The notes under the pieces: generated by a model | Seen by the model: only the letters and a program-made list of their open reading frames with translations | The model's database searches: none | Told to the model about the DNA's origin: nothing | DNA from: Thiomicrospira aerophila AL3 | GTDB lineage: Bacteria; Pseudomonadota; Gammaproteobacteria; Thiomicrospirales; Thiomicrospiraceae | Direction of reading: 5' to 3' | Assembly: GCF_000227665.2 (NCBI RefSeq) | Contig: NZ_CP007030.1 | Location: 124,001 to 188,000, forward strand | DNA: 64,000 bases | Made by a program: the position numbers and the translations under genes | Part shown: positions 58,159 to 64,000 of the stretch, one piece after another | How the letters are laid out: each line of letters starts with the position of its first letter | Position numbering within the stretch: position 1 is the stretch's first letter

Positions 58159-59304
58159 ATGGATGCGCGAGTCCGTTCTTGGCTAAATCGTCATCTATTT
58201 GAGGATGATGCGGGCGGGATTATTCTGCCCTATAGTCTGCTAGATCAAAAACATCCCGATTTGCGCATTCCCAGTTGGGATGAGATGCTCACCGATCAGG
58301 CGGCCATCCCACGTTATCCCGCTAAACTTAATTTGTTATCCTGGTCAGAGCATGGGCGTTTGCAGCGCTGGCAGTCTGCGATTCCTGCATGGATTAAAGA
58401 GAGTGTTGCGTTGTTTGAAACGCACCAATTAAGCCTTCTCCATTATGCAGCGCGCTATCCACAGTTATTGGAAGTGTTGGATCAGGCGCCGGTTATGGCG
58501 TGGAAATTAGTGAGTATGCCTGGTCAGGAAATAGATCTTCAGCACCTGCTAAATGGTAAACGATCAGATTTAATGGCGGCTTTGGGTGTTGAGTCGCAGC
58601 AAGAGGGCGCACGCTTTTTGCGCCAGCTGCGGTTGCGTCAGGTTTCGCCAATTATTCTGGATCAGATTGATACCTGCTTGGTAGATAAGCAACGACTCGC
58701 AGGGTTGAGTCAGTTGCCGCGTGTCAATTCAATGGCGTTGGCCTTAGCCGCACGCTTCCCGGCTCTGATTGGTTGCCGATTGCACCGAACTCTGGCACAA
58801 CTGCCTTGCCGTCCTATGCAGTGTCAGTCGATGATTGCATTGTTGGAAGATGTGTATGCACTCGCAGCTTTTTTGGATACTGAGGCCGCTGAGCAGATAG
58901 GTGAGTGTCGTTATCTTACTGATGTGGAATCACTTTATCAAAGTTGGATTGAGCAATCTGTTGCCGTTATGAATTGCGCTCAATTACAGTTAACATCCCA
59001 GCCACAGCATCTTAAAACACTTGCTGAGTTTGTAGCGCTCAGTCGCCTGCAGTACCAGGCCTGGTGGTGTGATTTTGAACAGCCGCACCATCAGTTGTGG
59101 GCATGGCTAGAAGATCAAACGCCTGTAGGCGTGTTGATATCGGAAGTGAGCCAGCCAAATACGAGTTCAAATGACTCAAACCGATATCAAGCTAGACCTT
59201 ATCAATTGGTACGCATTCGTCAAGGCAAGAATCAACTCCCTTCGGCAAGCTTAATCGCCAAAGTGGAGTTGTGGTTACTTAATCTTCATCACCAAGACTT
59301 GTAA
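58159..59304 (+). CDS. Hypothetical protein, 381 residues
   Basis: I do not recognise this family. The protein is soluble, Leu/Gln/Ala-rich, with no signal peptide or membrane segment, and reads as mostly helical (for example LLHYAARYPQLLEVLDQAPVMAWKL). It has several Trp and scattered Cys but no metal-type cluster. It starts 2 bases after tcdA, so it belongs to the tatD-tcdA transcript, and its last 16 bases overlap the end of cynS on the other strand. Coding is well supported by length, frame and position. A CCAGGCCTGG encodes QAW near residue 300. Confidence 0.75.
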   Translation: MDARVRSWLNRHLFEDDAGGIILPYSLLDQKHPDLRIPSWDEMLTDQAAIPRYPAKLNLLSWSEHGRLQRWQSAIPAWIKESVALFETHQLSLLHYAARYPQLLEVLDQAPVMAWKLVSMPGQEIDLQHLLNGKRSDLMAALGVESQQEGARFLRQLRLRQVSPIILDQIDTCLVDKQRLAGLSQLPRVNSMALALAARFPALIGCRLHRTLAQLPCRPMQCQSMIALLEDVYALAAFLDTEAAEQIGECRYLTDVESLYQSWIEQSVAVMNCAQLQLTSQPQHLKTLAEFVALSRLQYQAWWCDFEQPHHQLWAWLEDQTPVGVLISEVSQPNTSSNDSNRYQARPYQLVRIRQGKNQLPSASLIAKVELWLLNLHHQDL

Positions 59305-59732
59305 GGTAGAAACTTACCGTTCATGCTAATGACTACACGGTCACCCGCTGGATTTTCTTCCTTATCGATATGCATCGTGAAGTCAATGGCGCTCATAATG
59401 CCATCGCCAAATTTTTCATGAATAAGGGTTTTCATGGTAGGACCGTACACCCCTACAATTTCATAAAGACGATAAATCAATGGATCGGTGGGCACGGATT
59501 TATCCCACGTTTTATGCGGACATTCTTGTAATGCTAGGGCGATGTCATCACCTAACTTTAAGAATGCAGCGAGTTTTTGTGCCGGTTCCGCTTTTAGACT
59601 GTTCATACCTAGGCAGGCTGAGGTTGCAAACACTTCACTTAAGCCACAAGCTGCGGCCATCTCACCCCAACTTACGCCAAGCTCATGCTTAGCCAGAATA
59701 ATGGTTTCAGTCATCGTTGTTTTAGTCATCAT
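59289..59732 (-). CDS. cynS: Cyanase (cyanate hydratase)
   Basis: Converts cyanate and bicarbonate to ammonia and two CO2. The catalytic Arg88, Glu91 and Ser114 correspond to E. coli Arg96, Glu99 and Ser122 with a constant shift of 8: IYRLYEIVGVYGP and FGDGIMSAIDF. 147 residues, slightly shorter than the 156 of E. coli at the N-terminus. TAGGAGA stands 8 bases before the ATG. It is the last gene of a four-gene operon and supplies both nitrogen and CO2 to the cell. Confidence 0.96.
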   Translation of the reverse strand: MMTKTTMTETIILAKHELGVSWGEMAAACGLSEVFATSACLGMNSLKAEPAQKLAAFLKLGDDIALALQECPHKTWDKSVPTDPLIYRLYEIVGVYGPTMKTLIHEKFGDGIMSAIDFTMHIDKEENPAGDRVVISMNGKFLPYKSW

Positions 59733-59753: not shown

Positions 59754-60605
59754 TTAACTTGCAGCTAAGTCTACGGTTAAAGGTTGGTGGTCAGGTTTCA
59801 CGTCACATACGCTGCCTGATAAGCCTTTCGAGCGATTGACCAGGAAGTCCACCAAGTGGTTGCGAATTTTGTAATAATTTTCATCATGAATAATGTCGGT
59901 CCGGGTTCTGGGTCGTGGAATACTGACCTTTACCGATTCTGCAATCTGTGCTTTGGGGCCGTTTGACATTAGCAAAATTCGGTCTGATAGCAAGATTGCC
60001 TCATCTACATCATGAGTAATCATGAATACAGTTTGCTTGGACTCTTCCCAAATTTTAATTAGCTCCTCTTGGATGACGCCGCGTGTTAATGCATCTAGCG
60101 CACCAAAGGGTTCATCCATTAACAGTAGCTGAGGTTGGGTAGCAAATGCACGCGCAATACTCACGCGTTGGCGCATACCGCCCGATAGCTGTGCAGGTTT
60201 GCGATCCAGAGCATGGCTCAGTCCAACCAGCTCCAAATAACGTTTGCTATGAGCTTCAACCTTCGACTTGTCCCAGCTAGGCCAACGGGCTCTCACTGCA
60301 AAAATAATGTTATCTAGGGTGGTTTTCCAGGGTAATAAACTGTAGTTTTGGAAAATCACCCCGCGCTCCAGGCTGGGTCCTGTAATTTCCTTTCCATCCA
60401 TGAGTACCAAACCATCGCTAGCCTCATCCAGGCCTGCTAAGATGTTTAAGATAGTTGATTTACCACAACCTGAATGTCCGATGACACATACAAATTCACC
60501 CTTTTCAATGCTAAAGTTGGCGTGTTCAAAAACCGTTGACACCTCTTTGCCATCGGGAGTTGGGTAGCTTTTGCGTAACCCTTGAATTTCTAAAAACTTT
60601 GTCAT
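59754..60605 (-). CDS. cynD: Cyanate/nitrate-type ABC transporter ATPase
   Basis: Drives uptake with the permease encoded before it. Walker A IGHSGCGKST, signature LSGGMRQR, Walker B LLLMDEPFGALDAL and the switch ITHD are complete. 283 residues, of the NrtD/CynD/TauB/SsuB group. Cyanate as substrate is inferred from the cyanase gene 21 bases downstream. A C-terminal part beyond residue 230 resembles that of NrtD/CynD. Confidence 0.92.
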   Translation of the reverse strand: MTKFLEIQGLRKSYPTPDGKEVSTVFEHANFSIEKGEFVCVIGHSGCGKSTILNILAGLDEASDGLVLMDGKEITGPSLERGVIFQNYSLLPWKTTLDNIIFAVRARWPSWDKSKVEAHSKRYLELVGLSHALDRKPAQLSGGMRQRVSIARAFATQPQLLLMDEPFGALDALTRGVIQEELIKIWEESKQTVFMITHDVDEAILLSDRILLMSNGPKAQIAESVKVSIPRPRTRTDIIHDENYYKIRNHLVDFLVNRSKGLSGSVCDVKPDHQPLTVDLAAS

Positions 60606-60625: not shown

Positions 60626-61462
60626 TTATTCTTGATAGGCAACCATACGTGCGCCAGCAGCCAAGATCATGTCGAGAATCATGCCTATGACGCCAATCAT
60701 GAAGATTGAAAAGATCACGCGTGCGAGGTCAAGGTTGTTCCATTCGTTCCAAACGTAATAACCAATACCTGTACCGCCCACCAGCATTTCTGCGGCAACA
60801 ATAACGAGCCAAGCAATACCAATCGAAATACGCATGCCGGTCAAGATGGTCGGTGCAGCAGCAGGGAGCACTACTTGAAAAGCCGTTTGCACCGGTGAAA
60901 GTTGATGGGTTTTGGCAACATTAATCCAATCTTTGCGTACGCTGGCGACGCCAAAGGCAGTATTAAGTAGCATTGGCCAAATGGAGCAAATAAAAATTAC
61001 AAAAATCGCGGATAACTCAGAGTCTTGAATAATAAATAAGGCTAAAGGCATCCATGCCAAGGGTGAAATAGGACGCAGTACTTGGATATAGGGGTTAAGC
61101 GCCTTGTACATCATTGGTGACATACCAATAACAAATCCTAGAGGTATAGCAATAACTGCGGCCAATGCAAATCCCACAAGTACGCGATAGACAGAATGGG
61201 CTAGTTGCACCCCAATGCCTTTATCATTGGGTCCTGCGTCATAGAATGGGTTAGATAACTCTGCGATACCAAGTGCAATGATTTGAGACGGTGGTGGTAC
61301 CGCTGCTGTTGGAGCGCCAAGACCCATTAGCATTTCATATTCGGTCAATTCCCGACTCATGCTGGAATTGGCTGAATAGGTGCCTAGCTCCCAGCTACCC
61401 AGTAATACAATCAGCAGTGCGAGACTAACAAGGGTGGCTTTTAGATTAACGGACTTTAACAT
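60626..61462 (-). CDS. cynB: Cyanate/nitrate-type ABC transporter permease
   Basis: Inner-membrane permease of the NrtB/CynB/SsuC group, 278 residues with about six hydrophobic segments. VLRPISPLAWMPLALFII and the EAA-like region with VLPAAAPTILTGMRI are typical, as is the end NEWNNLDLARVIFSI. It lies between cynA and cynD with short gaps. Confidence 0.92.
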   Translation of the reverse strand: MLKSVNLKATLVSLALLIVLLGSWELGTYSANSSMSRELTEYEMLMGLGAPTAAVPPPSQIIALGIAELSNPFYDAGPNDKGIGVQLAHSVYRVLVGFALAAVIAIPLGFVIGMSPMMYKALNPYIQVLRPISPLAWMPLALFIIQDSELSAIFVIFICSIWPMLLNTAFGVASVRKDWINVAKTHQLSPVQTAFQVVLPAAAPTILTGMRISIGIAWLVIVAAEMLVGGTGIGYYVWNEWNNLDLARVIFSIFMIGVIGMILDMILAAGARMVAYQE

Positions 61463-61471
61463 AATGCCTCC

Positions 61472-62932
61472 TTATCCCTTGCGACCAATGGCAAAGCTGT
61501 TGATATAGGCCTCAGGCTCTGCTGGATCAAAGGTTTTACCCATGATAGTGTGGGTTTTATAGGTTTCAGAGGGAGGGGTCTGACCCAGTTCGCGCATGAT
61601 TTCCGCTGTTTCAGTGGCTAGGTATACGCGCTCAGCAATGTTGTTATACTGGATGTCGCCACTAATATAGCCCCAGCGCTTCATTTGAGTCAAAATCCAT
61701 ACCCCCATCGAGTGCCAAGGGAAAGGGTCAAAGTCGATTCGATCTGGAACATCCTGAATGTTACCTAAACCATCGGCAAAACGACCAGTGAGAACTTGTT
61801 CTATAACAGGCACGGGTTGGTTAAGATAATTACGTGGTGCAATCGCGCTCGCAATTTCGCGGCGATTTTCATGAATTGACGAATAATGTGTGGCATCAAT
61901 AATCGCTCTCAGCAAAGCACCATAAGTGTTTGGATTTTGGGTAGCGAACTCTTGGCTACAGGCAAAGGCGCAGCATGGATGCTTATCCCAAATGTCTTTG
62001 GTAAGCATGTGTATAAAGCCCACGTTTTCCCAAACGGCGCGCTGGTTAAACGGGTCGGGTGATAAATAGCCATCCAGGTTGCCTGCGCGCAAATTAGCGA
62101 CCATTTCAGGTGGCGGTACAACACGAATTTGAATATCTTGATCTGGGTCAAGACCATGTTCAGCCACATAATAGCGCAACAAGAAGTTGTGCATGGAATA
62201 TTCAAAAGGCACGCCAAAACGGAAACCTTTCCATTGTTTGGGGTCACGTTTGTCTTTGTGATCATTGTGTAGCACGATGGCTTGACCGTTGACATTCTCG
62301 ACTGCCGGCATAATGAAATGTCGTGATGTCGAACCCGCCCCAATGGTCATGGCAAGCGGCATAGGGGTAAGCATATGTGACGCATCATATTCACGGGCCA
62401 GTGATTTATCACGTGCGACTGCCCAACCAGCGGTTTTTTCGAGATTCACACTGAGGCCATACTTGTCATAAAAGCCCATGGGTTCAGCCATAATAATGGG
62501 TGTAGCACAGGTAATCGGTACAAAGCCAATGTTGAGGCGGCTTTTTTCCAATGGCCCTAAGGATTCTTTAATAGCCGCCTTGGCTTCGTTTAATGGAAAC
62601 ACACTGCTAATGGCGGCCGCGGCCGTACCGGCACCGACCATACTCAAAAAACTACGACGTGATAATTCGTTGTGATTAAAGACCGAGCGCACTACCGCGT
62701 TTTCAATAGCGCGATCAAGCATGGCTTCGCTTGAGTCGAACTGAGCTGGGGTGTTTGTTTTGTGTGTGGTGACTTTAAATTGATCAGCCTGTTGCTCGAT
62801 ATGCGCTTGGCGAGCCGATGCCGATGGTTGGTTAGTTGATTTTTCGGTTTGACAGATCGGGCAGGTGCAATTTTTAACGTGCAATAAGCTGCTTTTTTTA
62901 TCGAATGCGTTAGTTAGGCTTTTTATGGTCAT
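61472..62932 (-). CDS. cynA: Cyanate/nitrate-type substrate-binding protein with long N-terminal extension and Tat signal
   Basis: Periplasmic binding protein of the NrtA/CynA/CmpA group, 486 residues. The Tat signal is unusual in place: SRRSFLSMVGAGTAAAAIS has its two Arg at 92-93, followed by a likely cut after AKA near 119. The 90 residues before it would stay on the cytoplasmic side until export and include C-T-C-P-I-C (Cys22, 24, 27). The binding domain starts RLNIGFVPITCATPIIMAEP. GAGGAG is 8 bases before the ATG, so the long form looks real; an internal start near residue 71 (MLDRA) would still leave a long N-region. Confidence 0.92.
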   Translation of the reverse strand: MTIKSLTNAFDKKSSLLHVKNCTCPICQTEKSTNQPSASARQAHIEQQADQFKVTTHKTNTPAQFDSSEAMLDRAIENAVVRSVFNHNELSRRSFLSMVGAGTAAAAISSVFPLNEAKAAIKESLGPLEKSRLNIGFVPITCATPIIMAEPMGFYDKYGLSVNLEKTAGWAVARDKSLAREYDASHMLTPMPLAMTIGAGSTSRHFIMPAVENVNGQAIVLHNDHKDKRDPKQWKGFRFGVPFEYSMHNFLLRYYVAEHGLDPDQDIQIRVVPPPEMVANLRAGNLDGYLSPDPFNQRAVWENVGFIHMLTKDIWDKHPCCAFACSQEFATQNPNTYGALLRAIIDATHYSSIHENRREIASAIAPRNYLNQPVPVIEQVLTGRFADGLGNIQDVPDRIDFDPFPWHSMGVWILTQMKRWGYISGDIQYNNIAERVYLATETAEIMRELGQTPPSETYKTHTIMGKTFDPAEPEAYINSFAIGRKG

Positions 62933-62978
62933 GATGATGCTCCTCGAGTTAGCGTTAGCATTTAGTCAGGCTATACTG

Positions 62979-62994
62979 AGCATCGCACATGCCA
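62979..62994 (-). promoter_or_regulatory. Candidate sigma-54 promoter of the cyn operon
   Basis: On the minus strand: TGGCAT, GTGCG, ATGCT. The -24 GG and -12 GC are spaced by exactly 10 bases as sigma-54 needs; compared with TGGCAC-N5-TTGCA there are three mismatches, none in the key GG/GC. The transcript would start about 36 bases before cynA. The neighbouring gene is of the sigma-54 activator type. Confidence 0.6.
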
Positions 62995-63073
62995 GTTAGT
63001 GAATTTAATTTTTAAGTTATTGTTTTTAAAAGCTTTGTGGATTATTTGATTAATTATTTTCCTTGCAATTTTC

Positions 63074-63126
63074 TACGAAATAAAATAGATTTACGATATA
63101 GCGTTTATTTATTACGAAATGTCGTA
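63074..63126. promoter_or_regulatory. Four TACGANAT repeats between cynA and the regulator gene
   Basis: TACGAAAT at 63074-63081, TACGATAT at 63092-63099, TACGAAAT at 63113-63120, and an inverted TACGACAT at 63119-63126, so the last two form a TACGA-AATG-TCGTA palindrome. They lie about 80-130 bases upstream of the sigma-54 promoter candidate, the usual enhancer distance, and directly before the regulator start, so they could serve activation and self-control. The rest of the 202-base gap (62933-63134) is AT-rich without a gene. Confidence 0.55.
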
Positions 63127-63134
63127 GGTCTAGT

Positions 63135-64000
63135 ATGTCTTTATTTGGTTTGTTTTTTACCCAGTTACCCGAAGCCTGTATTTTGGTGGACCCTTTCGCC
63201 AATAAGATTTGCTATCGCAATCTCAAAGCGCAACAACTACTGCCTGAGGTCGATCGGGCCACGGACATATTTAGCTCCCCGCCGGGTAAGTTGGTGGTAT
63301 TTACTCAAGAAATCCTGGAGAAACAGCAGGCCTGGTCGAGTGAGCTGAGTATTCGTTTGCAAAGTGGCAAAACCTTAGCGGTCGAGGCGTTGGGCTTTCG
63401 GGTTGCCGATGAATCTAGTCAATCACTGGTCGCGATGGTGTTGACCAGTAAGCCTAGCCTAGCTCAACGGCGGCAATTGGCTGAAGTGCATCGCTTGCAT
63501 CGCGATGGCTTGGTTTATTGGAAAACCATTGAGCAGGCGTTTCGTGAGTTTGAGCGCGAGAATGATTTAATTTTGCAGTCGGTCGGTGATGGGATTTATG
63601 GGGTGGATATCGACGGCAAGGCAACTTTTGTTAACCCGGCTTGTGAGCGTATTTTAGAGTGGCGCGCTGAAGAGATGATTGGGAAAAATGTTCATGATCT
63701 TATTCACCACCATCATCCCGACGGGCGCCATTATCATGGTCACGATTGTCCTATTTATGCCGCCTTTCGGGATGGTGAAATTCGTCAAGTCGATGATGAG
63801 GTGTTCTGGACCAAGAGTGGTCGTGCTATTCCGGTGGCCTATACCAGTACGCCGATTTTAGATTCGGGGCAATTGGTGGGTGCGGTGGTGGTGTTTCGTG
63901 ACATTAGTGAGCGTATCGAAGCTGAAACGCAGCTAAAGCATGCCTTGGCAGAAGTGCAGGCGCTTAAACAACGCTTAGAGGCTGAAAATGCCTATTTACA
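63135..64000 (+). CDS. PAS-containing regulator, probably a sigma-54 activator (3' end outside window)
   Basis: The frame from the ATG at 63135 is open to the right edge, giving 288 residues. Residues 1-110 look like a divergent PAS-type domain (LPEACILVDPFANKICYRN). Residues 143-262 form a clear PAS domain (LILQSVGDGIYGVDIDGKAT, FVNPACERILEW, VVVFRDISERIEAE) with a His-rich loop of the HHxxPDG...CPIY kind. The last visible part, EVQALKQRLEAENAYL, is the coiled linker that normally comes just before the sigma-54-interacting AAA+ domain in FhlA/NtrC-like regulators. That domain and the DNA-binding end lie outside the window. The ribosome site is weak (AGG 6 bases before ATG). Confidence 0.75.
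   Translation, partial: MSLFGLFFTQLPEACILVDPFANKICYRNLKAQQLLPEVDRATDIFSSPPGKLVVFTQEILEKQQAWSSELSIRLQSGKTLAVEALGFRVADESSQSLVAMVLTSKPSLAQRRQLAEVHRLHRDGLVYWKTIEQAFREFERENDLILQSVGDGIYGVDIDGKATFVNPACERILEWRAEEMIGKNVHDLIHHHHPDGRHYHGHDCPIYAAFRDGEIRQVDDEVFWTKSGRAIPVAYTSTPILDSGQLVGAVVVFRDISERIEAETQLKHALAEVQALKQRLEAENAYL

Follow-up and report, generated by a model that had tools for sequence, protein, structure and literature searches.

A predicted sigma-54 promoter and a candidate three-palindrome CynF enhancer upstream of the cyanate operon cynABDS in Thiomicrospira aerophila AL3

In our study, the cynABDS operon of Thiomicrospira aerophila AL3 was found to be preceded by the site TGGCATGTGCGATGCT, which is very likely a -24/-12 promoter driven by the divergently encoded activator CynF from a CynF-bound enhancer, probably with an IHF bend in between and probably in response to a cyanate signal. 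The window, i.e., the whole stretch of DNA analysed, comprised 64,000 nucleotides, and the features found in it are listed in Table 1. An earlier note on this DNA had proposed this site as a sigma-54 promoter of the cyanate operon, and this proposal was upheld by the conserved -24/-12 site, the adjoining activator gene and the conserved activator sites; a genuine promoter is very probably present before the genes for cyanate uptake and cyanase. CynF would bind three TACGAAATTTCGTA-type palindromes, which lie some 93-132 bp upstream from the -24 box; the DNA between enhancer and promoter would bend, probably with IHF, and the AAA+ ring of CynF would use its GAFTGA loop to remodel the closed RNA polymerase-sigma-54 complex at the promoter. 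Transcription of cynA would then begin near 62968, the start given in the earlier note and also the +1 predicted from the position of TGGCATGTGCGATGCT. Cyanate or a product of cyanate would probably switch CynF on through the N-terminal PAS domains. CynF may also limit its own synthesis, since site 1 of the enhancer lies directly before the cynF start codon.

Table 1. Features of the cynF-cynABDS region, in window coordinates
Feature	Position	Strand	Remarks
cynS, cyanase	59289..59732	-	TIGR00673, 172 bits, above cut-off
cynD, ABC ATPase	59754..60605	-	
cynB, ABC permease	60626..61462	-	
cynA, NMT1/CmpA-NrtA-type substrate-binding protein	61472..62932	-	
Predicted sigma-54 (-24/-12) promoter TGGCATGTGCGATGCT	62979..62994	-	motif and conservation; predicted +1 near 62968
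IHF-like site AAACAATAACTTA	63013..63025	-	differs from WATCAANNNNTTR at one position; between enhancer and promoter
Candidate CynF site 3, promoter-proximal	63074..63087	.	degenerate, 7/10; TATTTTATTTCGTA on the cynA strand
Candidate CynF site 2	63092..63105	.	8/10; AACGCTATATCGTA as read on the cynA strand
Candidate CynF site 1	63113..63126	.	10/10 palindrome TACGACATTTCGTA; ends 8 nt before the cynF start codon
cynF, 5' part	63135..64000	+	PAS / AAA+ with GAFTGA / Fis-type HTH

The genes cynA, cynB, cynD and cynS follow one another on the minus strand, spaced by about 9-21 nt, and cynA possesses the Shine-Dalgarno sequence AGGAG at 62944-62940. The promoter site reads TGGCAT-GTGCG-ATGCT on the minus strand (62994-62979). 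The key GG (62993-62992) and GC (62981-62980) are separated by exactly 10 nt, which agrees with the exact spacing claimed in the earlier note; of its further statement that the candidate lies 47 bases before cynA, the presence of the candidate stood and the distance was corrected to 46 nt, as counted from TGGCATGTGCGATGCT to the cynA ATG (62932). Compared with the consensus TGGCACG-N4-TTGCW, the site contained two departures (C to T and T to A), which count against the proposed reading. With a weighted -24/-12 score matrix, hand-set from the known consensus, TGGCATGTGCGATGCT ranked joint first within the window, and its score was matched by 0.06% of dinucleotide shuffles of the cynF-cynA intergenic region (202-203 nt). 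A loose consensus scan allowing three mismatches gave 382 matches in the window vs 348 expected and was thus uninformative. The genome-wide search was made by pattern; TGGCAY-N6-TGCW was found 27 times in the 2.16 Mb genome, against 7 for the reversed control pattern, and most of the occurrences were inside genes, so that the motif by itself is moderate evidence. The promoter call on TGGCATGTGCGATGCT is decided by conservation and not by the motif alone. The genome contained one copy of rpoN.

For the comparison, 93 loci were gathered by CynF similarity and not by promoter, so the promoter test was not circular. The cynA or cynS gene was divergently adjacent in 85 of the 93 loci. A -24/-12 score of at least 10 bits was reached on the target strand in 82 of these 85 loci (3.8 expected) and on the opposite strand in 32; at 14 bits or more, the numbers were 48 of 85 on the target strand, 5 on the opposite strand and 0.4 expected. 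In the family alignment, the site was aligned and conserved in all 13 members, and it was kept while the flanking intergenic sequence diverged. The count matrix of 80 distinct sites gave TGGCAYR-N5-TGC with nearly invariant GG and GC nucleotides; it illustrates the motif and does not test it, because the sites had been selected by the same score.

Three TACGAAATTTCGTA-type palindromes were found between cynF and the promoter in the 13-member family alignment. The palindrome triplet was present in 81 of the 85 CynF-cyn loci (0 expected by shuffle), and its internal spacings were fixed at 21-23 and 17-18 nt. The triplet of T. aerophila scored 25/30, a value that 0 of 3000 shuffles reached, and was unique in the window; its sites 2 and 3 are degenerate, which is a further point against the reading. 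The sequence TACGANNNNTCGTA of site 1 occurred only once in the genome, and this points to few other CynF targets in T. aerophila. The triplet supplies a concrete candidate for the CynF enhancer, conserved across the alpha- and gammaproteobacteria. Enhancer-promoter distances were examined in 62 dereplicated intergenic regions, 56 of which were scored. Measured between the proximal palindrome and the -24 box, these distances fell into groups at 61, 70-74, 81-85 and 93-96 bp, with a value of 93 in T. aerophila and its closest relative. These groups lie about one helical turn apart, as predicted by activator-driven DNA looping, and are consistent with face-of-helix coupling. However, the grouping is in part confounded with lineage, as alphaproteobacteria and Pseudomonas are found near 71 and most other gammaproteobacteria near 83, so the independent shifts in distance would be few. 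Enhancer distances in helical steps would form a ready-made series in which to examine the constraint that activator distance places on sigma-54 promoters.

The IHF-like match precedes the -24 box by about 30 nt, was found at an equal offset in most of the 13 family members and was perfect in the closest relative (L098). Over the 85 CynF-cyn loci, 35 such matches were found vs 14.6 expected. Since this enrichment was modest, IHF was kept as likely for the family of T. aerophila and not as a general component.

The cynF gene is truncated by the end of the window; the full gene extends to genome position C1:188982 and encodes 615 amino acids. CynF contained a PAS domain, a sigma-54 interaction AAA+ domain with GAFTGA and a C-terminal Fis-type HTH, and no receiver domain was found. 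Sequence and structure comparison placed it with sigma-54 activators such as DmpR, ZraR and FleQ; the fold search with the CynF model was dominated by the AAA+ domain. The predicted structure was of modest confidence (mean pLDDT 74.8, pTM 0.39), and the N-terminal 105 residues appear PAS-like in it by the order of their elements. CynF was 56% identical over its whole length to CynF of Pseudomonas mendocina EF27, the protein through which orthology to the studied CynF was judged, standing in for the record of strain CECT5344. The Pfam PAS domain contained an HH...CPI motif at residues 191-207 (L010:7135-8979), in which H191, H192, C205 and I207 were invariant and P206 was nearly invariant among 31 CynF homologues. 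In signal sensing, this motif is a candidate for the binding of a ligand or a metal. Pseudomonas CynF paralogues that are not next to a cyn operon share the HH...CP part, and the motif is thus not confined to regulators of cyanate use. Such paralogues without a cyn operon nearby were present at loci L036, L042, L051, L052, L076 and L086, and in several of them the upstream stretch examined contained a strong -24/-12 site (TGGCACGGCGTTCGCT), so that these paralogues probably have a different target. The T. aerophila genome encodes several other sigma-54 activators, including an NtrBC-like pair and a REC-type activator adjoining flagellar genes.

Sigma-54 itself does not sense nitrogen, and specificity is given by the activator. 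The earlier note had held that control by sigma-54 ties cyanate use to nitrogen status; this was not sustained, as the intergenic region lacked an NtrC-type site and CynF lacks a receiver domain, and sigma-54 control alone should not be taken to imply nitrogen-status control. A promoter activated by NtrC, which would report nitrogen status directly, could draw on the NtrBC-like pair and would fit the ammonium repression of cynABDS in P. pseudoalcaligenes (PMC6627978), but it is very unlikely here: GCAC-N4-8-GTGC was absent from the cynF-cynA intergenic region, none of the seven genomic matches to TGCAC-N7-GTGC was near cyn, and the conserved enhancer differs in sequence from NtrC sites and travels with cynF. 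Ammonium repression as in Pseudomonas is possible by some other route. There is hardly any probability that the -24/-12 match arose by chance and that a sigma-70 promoter within the AT-rich intergenic region drives cynA; the single sigma-70-like match on the cynA strand, TTGCAA-16-AATAAT, is at chance level (0.9 expected in shuffles vs 1 found), whereas the sigma-54 site is conserved in diverging surroundings.

The promoter and the CynF enhancer could also be real with an inducer other than cyanate, such as a thiocyanate-derived compound, bicarbonate or a general nitrogen signal. Such a reading modifies the preferred explanation and leaves its promoter part standing, and the PAS motif shared with the cyn-less Pseudomonas paralogues speaks for it, as the motif is not cyanate-specific. 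We consider it unlikely, because cyanate raised the cyanase activity of P. pseudoalcaligenes about 13- to 18-fold compared with nitrate, glutamate or no nitrogen (PMC6627978, Table 1), and this rise required CynF (PMC6627978). Activation by CynF in response to cyanate is the most likely mechanism.

In the genomes of T. aerophila's family without CynF, cynS was found to stand alone, divergent from an OsmC-like gene in the contexts examined; an acyl-CoA-dehydrogenase-like gene was also seen in these divergent contexts. Most of the solo cynS genes were preceded, at about 30-50 nt, by a -24/-12 site of their own (L138, L146, L147, L150, L151, L158, L161, L162 and others). For this reason, the intended use of solo cynS as a control lacking the sigma-54 site was dropped. 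A full-match CynF palindrome was absent upstream of solo cynS (best 8/10), so that these genes serve as a contrast for the palindromes only. Among the 23 cynS upstream regions compared outside CynF operons, 12 contained a perfect IHF consensus (0.7 expected), and TTGTNNACAA repeats were found at 41 sites vs 10.4 expected, replacing the CynF palindromes. Judged from these upstream sequences, the promoter and IHF layout of solo cynS would be as in the CynF type, with TTGTNNACAA-type repeats instead of the palindromes, and a second sigma-54 activator for cyanase probably acts there. The chances are about even that cyanase was wired to sigma-54 at least two times with different activators, in one case by CynF with the three-palindrome, helical-step enhancer and in the other at solo cynS with the TTGTNNACAA repeats. 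Several relatives contained two cynS genes (genomes G056, G016, G048, G049, G062, G023 and G012); in some of the two-cynS genomes that bear CynF, one cynS was near the CynF gene and the other was elsewhere.

The cynTSX operon of Escherichia coli is controlled by the LysR-type regulator CynR, and the cyn genes of cyanobacteria are controlled by NtcA. In these systems, too, cyanase is regulated, but with sigma-70 and unrelated regulators. The earlier note had regarded sigma-54 control as a different solution; however, the design had already been published in 2019 for P. pseudoalcaligenes (oleovorans) CECT5344 (PMC6627978). In that strain, the genes form a cynFABDS cluster, cynF is essential for cynABDS, and a cynF mutant is without cyanase and does not grow on cyanate; cynABDS is induced by cyanate and repressed by ammonium, and a putative sigma-54 promoter was noted before cynA (PMC6627978). 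The cyn cluster of P. mendocina is 97-98% identical to the CECT5344 genes (PMC6627978). T. aerophila and CECT5344 share the gene order with a divergent cynF, and both have a putative sigma-54 promoter before cynA. Related Pseudomonas intergenic regions contained three palindromes, as in T. aerophila. The intergenic region of T. aerophila is shorter than in the Pseudomonas system (about 202-203 vs 268 nt), and its enhancer is more distant from the promoter by about two helical turns (93 vs 70 bp). No enhancer sites are described in the main text of PMC6627978. In alpha- and gammaproteobacteria, cyanate lyase (COG1513) was reported to be enriched among the predicted sigma-54 regulons (PMC12316311, 2025); cyanase is likewise a sigma-54 target there, and the prediction is genome-wide and, as far as the available text of that paper goes, names neither activator nor enhancer. 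In Bradyrhizobium DOA9, the expression of cynS falls in an rpoN mutant (PMC13207237). Given these precedents (CECT5344, PMC13207237 and, in its available text, PMC12316311), sigma-54 control of cyanate genes is not new. The three-site enhancer and the second type of sigma-54 promoter before solo cynS, both predicted from sequence, appear to be new but modest additions; neither enhancer was found described in the part of the literature covered. Our study adds a sulfur-oxidiser-type bacterium to the CynF-controlled cyanate operons.

The N-terminus of CynA (window 62932-62600, minus strand) was found to contain a long extension with a conserved SLxHxxxCxCxxC motif, common to the gammaproteobacterial relatives, and this motif is a possible metal site. 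In the family of Thiomicrospira aerophila, the Tat-like RRxF of CynA appears only after some 90 residues. At genome position C1:1040472-1040487 on the minus strand (L122), a strong -24/-12-like site, TGGCACGTTAAGTGCT, was found a short way downstream of nitrate/taurine-type ABC transporter genes; it precedes an ORF for a 423-aa FAD-dependent reductase by 83 nt.
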